This document shows, piece by piece, positions 1 through 3,005 of a stretch of 64,000 bases of DNA. Positions within the stretch are counted from its first letter, which is position 1; each line of letters begins with the position of its first letter. A model generated the notes under the pieces. It did not search any database, had not been told where the DNA came from, and saw only the letters and a program-made list of their open reading frames with translations. The position numbers were made by a program, and so were the translations under genes. Source of the DNA: Thalassobacillus devorans (GTDB lineage: Bacteria > Bacillota > Bacilli > Bacillales > Halobacillaceae); the NCBI RefSeq assembly GCF_900176565.1, contig NZ_FXEH01000006.1, forward strand, positions 1,240,001-1,304,000, written 5' to 3'.

Positions 1-523
1 TATCATTGATCTTTTTCCTTCGTTCCAGCATCCCATCAATCCAGACACTCATCAATTCCGGAAGTGTCAGGAGACGAATCGTGTGTCCTGTCGGTGCTGT
101 ATCAAAGACTATTTTATCAAACTGATTTGCTTTTTCGAGAATAATCGAAATCAGCCGGTCGAATAATGCAGCTTCATCCGCTCCAGGTGAAGCACTGGCC
201 ATATCTATCTGCCTATGGACCTCTTCCACCATCCGGGATATAACCAGCCCCTGCAGATTATCTTTTACTCCTTCAATATACCGTTTCGATTCTCTTTCCG
301 GATCCACTTCAATGCCCCAGAGATATTCAGTCAGTTTTGTTTTTTCGTGTTTGATTTTTTTATGAAAAATATCCCCGAGGTTGTGGGCAGGATCCGTTGA
401 CACAATCAATGTCCGGTGACCGGAATCAGCCAATGCCAGCGCAAAAGCAGCGGAGGTCGTCGATTTACCGACGCCTCCCTTTCCCCCTATGAATACTATT
501 TTTTTATTGATTAGATTACTCAT
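1..523 (-). CDS. ArsA/Get3-type anion-transporting ATPase, N-terminal part (cut by window edge)
   Basis: About 174 residues of the N-terminal part are present; the gene runs off the window start. Seen: the deviant P-loop GGKGGVGKST near residue 13, the STDPAHNLGD switch motif near residue 42, and the DTAPTGHTIRLL motif near residue 140. All three are diagnostic of the ArsA/Get3 family of SIMIBI ATPases, which dimerise and drive arsenite pumps or deliver membrane proteins. The start has an AAAGGA site 10 nt upstream. It is the last visible gene of a minus-strand operon behind a Cys-Cys-tailed small protein and a thioredoxin-fold protein. No ArsB or Acr3 pump is in view, so a role in arsenite export is only one option; metal or tail-anchor handling is equally possible. 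The family call is firm; the substrate is unknown. Confidence 0.9.
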   Translation of the reverse strand, partial: MSNLINKKIVFIGGKGGVGKSTTSAAFALALADSGHRTLIVSTDPAHNLGDIFHKKIKHEKTKLTEYLWGIEVDPERESKRYIEGVKDNLQGLVISRMVEEVHRQIDMASASPGADEAALFDRLISIILEKANQFDKIVFDTAPTGHTIRLLTLPELMSVWIDGMLERRKKIND

Positions 524-547: not shown

Positions 548-814
548 TTAACAACAGCGGATGCCCTCAAGGGGAGACTTCTCCATCCCCATCCGCAAAT
601 GCCAATCGTGGAATTTTTCGATGATATACGGGTAAAGTTCGAGTGTATAATAGAAAGCAGGATTCGGTATGCCGAGCATGTCGGAATAGACAAGCAAAAG
701 GAATAGGTCATCCTCATCCCTGAGTTCTCTGGCAACCTCGTTTTTGTGAGGAAGACTGAGGACCTCGTCATACAACTCGAAGAGACGCTTTAACGAAAAC
801 TTCTTGTCAGTCAT
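548..814 (-). CDS. small Cys-Cys-tailed protein (cory-CC-star type)
   Basis: An 88-residue protein whose last residues are GIRCC followed directly by the stop. From memory this matches the short 'cory-CC-star' proteins of Bacillaceae, named for a terminal Cys-Cys; no function is established. The N-terminal half is charged and probably helical. There is no membrane segment and no signal peptide. The start has GGGAGG 8 nt upstream. It lies 13 nt after the stop of the thioredoxin-fold gene and 24 nt before the ArsA-type ATPase start, so the three are probably co-transcribed. A C-terminal dicysteine next to an ArsA-like ATPase suggests thiol-based binding of a soft metal or metalloid, or a redox partner for the thioredoxin-like protein (inference). 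Confidence 0.75.
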   Translation of the reverse strand: MTDKKFSLKRLFELYDEVLSLPHKNEVARELRDEDDLFLLLVYSDMLGIPNPAFYYTLELYPYIIEKFHDWHLRMGMEKSPLEGIRCC

Positions 815-827
815 ACATGCCGCCTCC

Positions 828-1205
828 CTAGCTAAATAGCCTTTCTTTAATCAGTGTATCATAATTGTTTGAATCTCTTAGGTATTTACCATCGATAAAG
901 ATCGCATTAAATTTGATATGGAGGAAAAAGTGAGACAACCCTTCCAGCCATGATATATTCTCTTTCTTCGCTTGTGAAATAAAATAACCGGCAATGGATA
1001 ACAGGTTTCGCGGGTCAAGGAAATTGATATTCACTTGATCGCCATAGTCGATCAATATCTGCCGGTATATGCGCCCCATCTCTATTCTATCCTGTTCATG
1101 ATGCTTGAAATCGTCACTCATGGTGATGAGCCCGTCATCACTGATTCCACCGCATCAGCCTCCGCCAATTTGCTTTTCCGCTCGAATGATAATGATGTCG
1201 ATCAT
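828..1205 (-). CDS. thioredoxin-fold protein with in-frame TGA (possible selenoprotein, or broken gene)
   Basis: The open frame from 1121 has no ribosome site, but the same frame continues upstream through one TGA (1155-1157) to an ATG at 1203-1205 with a perfect AAGGAGG 7 nt before it. Read through, the protein is about 125 residues. It starts with a beta strand (MIDIIIIRAE), then GGG-x-CGG where x is the TGA codon, then a helix, a second strand (QVNINFLDP) and a third (FNAIFIDGKYL). That order is typical of a thioredoxin-like domain, with the redox pair where the TGA-Cys pair sits. The stop may be selenocysteine, a TGC-to-TGA mutation, or a sequencing error. A hairpin with SECIS-like geometry follows it. 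No Sec-insertion genes are in this window, so the choice is open. Confidence 0.6.
1123..1141 (-). promoter_or_regulatory. SECIS-like hairpin downstream of the in-frame TGA
   Basis: On the minus strand a perfect 7-bp stem (GTGATGA / TCATCAC) encloses the 5-nt loop CGGGC. The loop begins 20 nt after the TGA, and one of its first two bases is G. These values fall inside the published bacterial SECIS consensus (stem of at least 4 bp, loop of 3-14 nt, UGA-to-loop distance 16-37 nt). A 7-bp stem can arise by chance, so this supports but does not prove recoding. Confidence 0.4.
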
Positions 1206-1227
1206 CTGTACACCTCCTTGAAAGGGG

Positions 1228-1260
1228 AAAAAGCCGCACTAGTGAGCGCGGCTTTTTTTA
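1228..1260 (-). terminator. rho-independent terminator of cstA
   Basis: AAGCCGC pairs with GCGGCTT around a short loop, with U-runs on either strand. It sits just after the cstA stop and before the ribosome site of the thioredoxin-fold operon, separating the two units. It could work in both directions. Confidence 0.8.
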
Positions 1261-1266
1261 AAATGA

Positions 1267-3005
1267 TTAGGCACTTCGTTCAATACGATCTTTCTTATCT
1301 TTCGCGATAGCTGCAAATGCCGTTAATAAAATCCAGAAAGTGAACACCAGGATGATTGCTCCAAATGTGAATAACAGCCAATCACTGCCTTCTGTCCAAG
1401 GTGCCCACTGCGTGAACACCTGGGTAATCATGGCCCATAAAGTCATAAACATCAGGAAGACCATAGGAATAATTGTCGGCAGATAGTTCCTGCCAAGACG
1501 CTTCAGCCAGATAGAAATCAATAAAAGACTGATCCCTGCCAGCAGCTGATTCGATGTTCCGAACAACGGCCATAACAGGTAACCCCCGGAACCGAAACCA
1601 TTTGGTCCTTCCGGAATCAAGGTAAGGGCTGCACTGGATGCAACTGCGATTGTAGTCGCCACGTGTGTCTTAGTAATCGGCTTAATGTTATATTCTGTGC
1701 CTAGTTCAGCAATGATATAACGCATTAACCGGACGGAAGAGTCAAGGGTGGTCGCAGCAAAACTTACAACGATAACAGAAACAATTGTAGCAGCAACACT
1801 TGCTGGAATACCGAGCCCCGCTGCCAATTGACCTGCACCCTGGATGAATACTCCTAAACCTGCTCCACTGGCAGCAGCAAATCCACTATAGGTATCAAGG
1901 AATTCGCCAGATGTAGGGAAGAAAGTGACGACCGCAATAATCGCGACTAGTGCAAGAGCACCTTCTCCGACGGACCCAGGTAACCTACGAAACGAGCATC
2001 TGTCTCTTTGTCCAATTGCTTAGAAGATGTCCCGGATGAAACCAGACCGTGGAAGCCTGAAATGGCACCACAGGCAATCGTTATAAATAACAGCGGGAAC
2101 CAGGAGACATCATTCGCCTGGCTGTTAGTCACAGGAGCCGTGATCTCCGGGTTAGTGAACAACAAGCCCAGGTAAAGCAAGCCCAAGCCGACGATCAACT
2201 GATGGGAGTTGATGTAATCCCGTGGCTGCAAGAGCTTCCAAACAGGAAGCGTGGAAGCAATGTATACATAGACCATCAATACAACGATCCAGACTAAAAA
2301 CGCCATCGATGTAGCGCTCATTCCAAATAGAGCAGTTGCCCCTTCTCCTCCGAAATAACGGACGAGGTCGATTTGCAGTGCTGGAACATAGCTTGCCACG
2401 ATCGCTGCCAAATACATAACCGCCAGTGCGACTATTGAAGGCAATAGCATACTTCCTTTTCGCTTGTAGACACTGTAGCCAATCCATATTGCTAATGGAA
2501 TTTGGATGAAAACAGATAGTACGCTAGCCGGGAATGAGATGAACAAGTTTGCAATAACCCAGGCAAATACAGCGTTGACCATCAATACTAACAATAAAAT
2601 GATGAATAAGAACAAGATTTTCGCACGTTGGCCGATAAGTTTATTTGCCAATGTACCGATCGATTGCCCTTTATTTCTTACAGATAGAACTAATGTACCA
2701 AAGTCATGGACACCTGCAGCGAAGACAGTACCTAGTAAAACCCATACCAATGCCGGCAGCCAGCCCCAGTACACGGCGATTGCCGGTCCGACAATCGGTG
2801 CTGCTCCTGCTACGGACGTAAAATGGTGTCCCCATAAAACAAATTTGTTGGTTGGTACAAAATCCACGCCATCTTTATATTGATGGGCTGGTGTTGTATA
2901 GTTCGGGTCCAACCGGTAGATTTTCTCGGCGATGAACTTGGAATAATATTTATATCCAAGAAAAAATATGATACCGCCGATAAGCGCTAACCATATACCA
3001 CTCAT
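1267..3005 (-). pseudogene. cstA: carbon starvation protein CstA (peptide/pyruvate transporter), frameshifted
   Basis: Two frames together encode a full CstA: the N-terminal part runs from 3005 to about 1980 and the C-terminal part from about 1977 to 1267. CstA proteins are polytopic membrane transporters for peptides or pyruvate. Seen: GHHFTSVAGAAPIVGPA near residue 60, FAAGVHDFGTLVLSVR, SGFHGLVSSGTSSKQL and SVRLMRYI, all family landmarks, and many hydrophobic segments. After TDARFVGY the frame is lost. Two extra bases (CT on the minus strand, 1978-1979) restore GSVGEGALALVAII when removed, giving about 578 residues, the usual length. Either a recent frameshift has inactivated the gene or the base call is wrong; no other damage is visible. 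No regulator or partner gene is adjacent. Confidence 0.85.

Follow-up and report, generated by a model that had tools for sequence, protein, structure and literature searches.

The locus raises two questions, namely whether the single TGA that interrupts a minus-strand frame of Thalassobacillus devorans is read as selenocysteine (Sec), and what a protein carrying Sec at that place would do in the neighbourhood of cstA. The frame lies in the window, by which we mean the whole 64,000-nucleotide stretch of DNA that was analysed, and runs from 1205 to 828 as MIDIIIIRAEKQIGGG, the only internal TGA at codon 17, and then CGG...RLFS with a stop codon (Table 1). The first-pass annotation of this DNA had described a strong AAGGAGG-ATG start and a frame open save for one TGA in front of a Cys, both of which we confirmed on the sequence, and it had proposed that the TGA is a Sec codon. 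Shine-Dalgarno-like sites also precede the copies of many relatives.

Table 1. Coordinates of the predicted selenoprotein gene, its neighbours and the Sec insertion genes. Positions are those of the window unless a contig is given.
Feature	Position	Strand	Remarks
Predicted selenoprotein gene	828..1205	-	125 residues, Sec at position 17, TAG stop 828-830; flanks of the TGA conserved in relatives
In-frame TGA, very probably read as Sec (U17)	1155..1157	-	immediately 5' of invariant Cys18; column is Cys or TGA in 38/38 aligned members
SECIS-like hairpin GUGAUGA-CGGGC-UCAUCAC	1123..1141	-	pairing kept across TGA loci
Shine-Dalgarno sequence AAGGAGG	1213..1219	-	7 nt 5' of ATG 1205-1203; read from the sequence
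cory-CC-star protein gene	548..814	-	88 aa, Cys-Cys end; NF041419 E 6e-38, 128.7 bits against a cut-off of 80
ArsA/Get3-family ATPase gene	2..523	-	TIGR00345 and PF02374; extends beyond the window edge
cstA, carbon starvation protein A	1267..3005	-	two frames here, 1947-3005 and 1267-1827; PF02554 E 1e-121 for the first part
Terminator-like hairpin and T tract between cstA and the selenoprotein gene	1228..1258 (bounds approximate)	-	folding of 75 nt upstream, no shuffle control
tRNA-Sec (selC), anticodon TCA	contig C4 1174350-1174442		
selB	contig C4 1175800-1177659		
selD	contig C4 1177845-1178774		
selA	contig C4 1179170-1180258		

Conservation of the frame around the TGA

The gene was found in 40 of 101 related genomes, the window's own counted, and the codon in question is TGA in 10 of them and TGC or TGT in 29, the remaining one being a degenerate Cys form with stops elsewhere in the frame (L065, genome G031). 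An order-wide search met the gene in 27 of 397 genomes, 10 of them new and all of these with TGA, one in a decayed copy, and a class-wide search met it in 12 of 398, which gave 12 distant Bacilli loci besides the window's own, two with TGA at the same place and ten with Cys. Both forms occur together in genome G122, where cstA, cory-CC-star and the ATPase gene accompany the Sec copy and a second cstA lies beside the Cys copy (L070, L078). In an alignment of the genes of the 40 genomes (38 rows, L064 and L065 being omitted) the invariant positions are R8, G14, G16, [U/C]17, C18, G19, G20 and a D-x-R-N motif, and TGA forms typically carry the motif UCGG[ILV]S, as against CCGG[IVM]C for the close Cys forms. 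On a rough estimate, for which the upstream part comprises 16 codons, nonsynonymous change is lower than synonymous change on either side of the TGA. A comparison of homologues at this codon and a search for relatives with a scrambled downstream frame had been proposed as checks; the relatives examined have either Cys or TGA there, and those with TGA retain the frame, except for one form (L121, genome G766) that has decayed by extra stops and lost its hairpin.

The TGA could alternatively be a true stop, in a pseudogene, through a base-call error, or with a restart at ATG 1121 that would give a 97-aa protein. The frame downstream of the TGA is indeed open from this ATG (97 aa), and a plasmid of Cytobacillus spongiae (NZ_CP089998.1), which carries a TGA form, is annotated in RefSeq with a CDS that starts 3' of the TGA and a product called hypothetical (L133 3585-3872). 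Against such a stop stand the conservation of the first 16 codons and of the residue pair around the TGA, and the recurrence of the TGA in many species. Moreover, no Shine-Dalgarno match was seen upstream of ATG 1121, in line with the first-pass annotation, and the Met encoded there is invariant across the 38 rows even in the Cys forms, whose full frame is open, which marks it as a conserved residue. A base-call error, which the first-pass annotation had kept as an alternative, is excluded since the identical TGA is shared by many independent assemblies. The comparison of relatives hence rejects pseudogene, base-call error and internal restart alike, and we regard a true stop as highly improbable.

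Sec insertion genes

The 4.07-Mb genome contains selC, selB, selD and selA, all four genes whose presence had been proposed as a check, on the contig of the window (C4) and some 60-66 kb before it. The selD gene carries an in-frame TGA of its own in the segment STKAG-TGA-GCKIGP (L032 7740-8795, minus), so that the organism very likely has another Sec codon, and the selD product is itself a probable selenoprotein. A SelA match with E < 1e-130 was obtained in 10/10 TGA genomes as against 4/29 Cys genomes, one of these four having SelA in two pieces, and the association of SelA with the form of the gene gave a Fisher P of 1.6e-6 with the degenerate genome omitted and kinship ignored.

The SECIS-like hairpin

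The hairpin reported in the first-pass annotation was found as described (GTGATGA-CGGGC-TCATCAC in DNA letters), with a 7-bp stem that begins 13 nt after the TGA and a 5-nt loop that begins 20 nt after it and has G at its second position. The bacterial SECIS model given in PMC13188914 has a loop of 3-9 nt, a stem of 4-16 bp, a G in the first two loop bases, a loop 16-37 nt after the UGA and an MFE of -7.5 kcal/mol or lower. Loop length, stem length, position of the G and spacing in the window hairpin all fit this model, and the MFE is -6.8 kcal/mol for the isolated 19-nt hairpin and -11.7 kcal/mol for the 54 nt that contain it. No SECIS family was reported by Rfam, all matches lying under the gathering scores.

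Taken in a single genome, the hairpin is weak when judged against chance. For ten close TGA loci, a stem at least as long arises in 5-20% of shuffled sequences. Most of the 54-nt stretches 3' of the TGA show no folding advantage over their shuffles, with z-scores mainly near zero, and the best fold of these 54 nt contains the hairpin in 7/10 loci, L004, L005 and L061 being folded otherwise. When the protein was held fixed and the codons were resampled by the usage of the window, seven pairs arose with P between 0.014 and 0.12 per locus at the 19 fully paired loci.

Evidence that exceeds chance comes from comparison between loci. Of 20 close TGA loci, a set without L121, which has decayed, and without the two distant TGA loci, 19 have all seven pairs and L118 has six; the loop reads CGGGY at 19 loci and AGGGT at the other, and ten loci carry G-C as the outer pair as against nine with C-G. 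The same columns of 29 Cys loci form 3 to 6 pairs and never seven (0/29). Nine distinct rows from ten TGA loci have 100% of cells paired as against 14-78% in slid versions of the alignment, and their covariation score was matched by 3/500 shuffles. One of the seven pairs is changed on both sides, a count equalled in 473/500 shuffles. The two distant TGA loci have hairpins of their own, with G at the first loop base.

SelB and tRNA-Sec would decode the UGA with the aid of the hairpin. Points against a Sec codon are the MFE of the isolated hairpin, just short of the value in the model, the z-scores near zero and the three loci that fold otherwise, the single pair changed on both sides, the SelA of the four Cys genomes, the incomplete stem of L118, and L121, decayed and devoid of the hairpin. 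On the comparison of sequences as a whole, TGA 1155-1157 very probably encodes selenocysteine, as the first-pass annotation had proposed, and the gene very probably belongs to a selenoprotein family of small size (~125 aa), apparently not yet catalogued, in which Sec and Cys form a vicinal pair. No entry identifiable with this family appears in Table 1 of the 87-family list of 2022 (PMC9312934) or in Table 1 of the 119-family list of 2026 (PMC13188914). Literature searches among openly licensed papers for cory-CC-star, for selenoproteins with ArsA and ArsD, and for Bacillaceae selenoproteins with SECIS elements found nothing, which leaves absence from print unproven.

Apparent replacement of Sec by Cys

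In a tree of 60 rows four changes of label are needed, and all 28 close Cys rows fall into a single clade, with support of 100/94, that lies among TGA rows. This reads as a single Sec-to-Cys replacement inside the family, under midpoint rooting with the root not independently fixed and with some weak forks near the clade. The replacement is accompanied by a change at residue 22 (L022, L065 and L121 omitted from the count), which is Cys in 28/28 close Cys rows and in 0/22 Sec rows (20 Ser, 1 Thr and 1 Ala), and is not Cys in any of the 10 distant Cys rows. The gain of a third Cys together with the loss of Sec suggests that the Sec-Cys pair alone does the work of three thiols in the close Cys form. 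We considered whether the hairpin dictates Ser in place of the third Cys and rejected the idea; with a TGT codon both bases of the stem would be preserved, and the hairpin therefore fails to account for the Ser at residue 22.

A TGA copy of genome G543 (L118) has Ala in place of Ser, and no cstA, cory-CC-star or ATPase gene was found within ~1.5 kb of it.

Genetic neighbourhood

Neighbouring genes were counted at 62 loci, up to ~1.5 kb on each side. The arrangement of cstA before the gene and cory-CC-star and the ArsA-family ATPase after it, all on one strand, is found at 51 of the 62, and of the remaining loci six have cstA alone, one, a short locus, misses cstA, and four lack all three. The most frequent neighbour is CstA (57/62). 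The neighbourhood is kept across families and at most distant Bacilli loci, and at two loci (L062 and L063) the frame of the family continues into cory-CC-star. These observations show a genetic link of the selenoprotein gene to cstA, cory-CC-star and the ATPase.

The split of cstA into two frames may be an assembly error or a real loss in this assembly; in the relative locus L034, cstA is a single 579-aa frame. In 16/18 loci of differing sequence the region 5' of the selenoprotein gene has a folding energy of -16 kcal/mol or below (values for which there is no shuffle control), the terminator-like hairpin being weak at L063 and missing at L015. The hairpin at ~1228-1258 of the window is strong, though a simple scan did not report it. 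A hairpin of this kind may control how much CstA there is relative to its partners.

The ATPase is nearest to Get3/ArsA structures. Its frame is present at 52/53 loci and complete at 51, of which 45 are free of cysteine (42/48 without the second copies of three genomes). The motif IACGAxSGFH of CstA, or a close variant, was found in 68/74 loci, with its Cys present in 68/68. Searches of PDB profiles gave nothing meaningful for the selenoprotein-family protein or for cory-CC-star, and with CstA none at E 0.01.

Possible function

We tentatively infer that the selenoprotein belongs to a CstA module and serves it as a redox partner through selenol/thiol chemistry, a role that we hold to be quite possible though short of probable. 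The pair U17-C18 would act on the C-terminal Cys-Cys of cory-CC-star by reduction, oxidation or exchange, the Get3/ArsA-type ATPase would provide ATP-driven binding or release, and the outcome would be an activated or assembled CstA transporter. Against such a module count the six loci with CstA alone, the four without any of the three neighbours, and the split of the cstA frame here.

The protein might instead be a general thiol peroxidase or disulfide reductase that lies beside cstA incidentally, and selenoproteins of unknown function are mostly thought to be redox proteins (PMC13188914). An incidental neighbourhood agrees poorly with its conservation across families and at most distant Bacilli loci and with the two frames that continue into cory-CC-star, and we find this reading rather unlikely.

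A further alternative is an arsenic metallochaperone of the ArsD type, in which the Sec-Cys pair would bind As(III) and pass it to the ArsA ATPase, CstA being an unrelated neighbour. The family does resemble ArsD (PF06953), in that the protein is small, has a vicinal Cys pair near its N-terminus and is encoded beside an ArsA-family gene, and the close Cys forms have a third Cys like ArsD. That Cys is present in none of the Sec rows or distant Cys rows counted above. PF06953 has no match in this genome, and membership of ArsD was rejected on a profile comparison with twelve Bacilli ArsD sequences, which was not significant. R773 ArsA has As(III)-binding cysteines. The neighbouring ATPase has no cysteine at the 45 loci given above, and none in the copy of this genome, a complete frame of 317 aa (L033 4570-5523), and the absence of cysteines from most ATPases together with the lack of an ArsD match weakens the arsenic reading. 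CstA is moreover the commonest neighbour and at six loci the only one found, and we consider an arsenic metallochaperone improbable.

Relation to known families

The protein of the window matches no family of Pfam or NCBIfam, and other members gave chance-level or sub-threshold matches alone. It resembles the thioredoxin-like selenoproteins Sec.1 and Sec.2 (PF13192) in being a small selenoprotein, but these have CxU or UxC (PMC13188914) whereas the family here has vicinal UC. The thioredoxin-type redox pair of the first-pass annotation stands as a redox pair, but as a vicinal Sec-Cys and not a CxxC of the thioredoxin type. A thioredoxin fold is plausible from the sequences, given weak sub-threshold matches of PF13192 (Thioredoxin_3) and TIGR00412 in distant members (best E 0.006) and a strand order and 'PAVxxNG' motif of some distant members that, on our reading, fit a thioredoxin-like fold.

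VcpD (NF047871, 'ArsD-related vicinal cysteine protein') has a vicinal Cys pair, as the family does, and its C-terminal strand motif is similar. NF047871 weakly matched the distant member L072 with E 0.0022 and 17.9 bits against a cut-off of 90, and did not match the window protein. The three VcpD loci found adjoin, on a reading of their frames, a gene for a CobW-like GTPase and not cstA.

Another close system is KCU-star/DUF466 (YbdD, PF04328), a small CstA-linked protein that ends in Cys-Cys or Cys-Sec; some DUF466 proteins end in Sec (PMC4607533), and pyruvate uptake by CstA of E. coli requires YbdD (PMC5847655). Homology of cory-CC-star to YbdD, suspected from their shared RCC end, was rejected, hhalign giving a Prob of 0.5% with six YbdD rows, and cory-CC-star had no PF04328 match at E 10. 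YbdD/DUF466 was found in 10/101 relatives and in none of the 40 with the selenoprotein family (P 0.005, kinship ignored). At four YbdD loci whose long frames were examined, an upstream frame that we read as CstA-like ends just 5' of ybdD, and the CstA motif was found at 9/10 YbdD loci. The Cys of IACGAxSGFH is the sole Cys of the examined stretch at 50/59 loci by the selenoprotein family as against 1/9 by YbdD.

It is tempting to speculate, on odds that we put as unlikely, that vicinal thiol or selenol chemistry activates or assembles transporters of the CstA family and that two unrelated partner systems would supply it, one being YbdD with its CC or CU end and the other the Sec-Cys protein with cory-CC-star and the Get3-type ATPase. 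A chain would then lead from the Sec-Cys pair to the Cys-Cys end and on to the conserved Cys of IACGAxSGFH in CstA, the ATPase acting as an escort like a bacterial Get3.

Implications

If the Sec codon is read as predicted, the family would add to the 119 selenoprotein families in the 2026 catalogue (PMC13188914, Table 1), and at least one public record annotates a member as a truncated hypothetical protein. The genome of T. devorans would gain a second probable selenoprotein besides SelD, and the family would offer a clean case of paired change, in that within one clade Cys takes the place of Sec and a third Cys appears with it. The transporter family of CstA, for which YbdD is known as a small Cys-Cys partner, would be tied to a second partner set that uses selenium.
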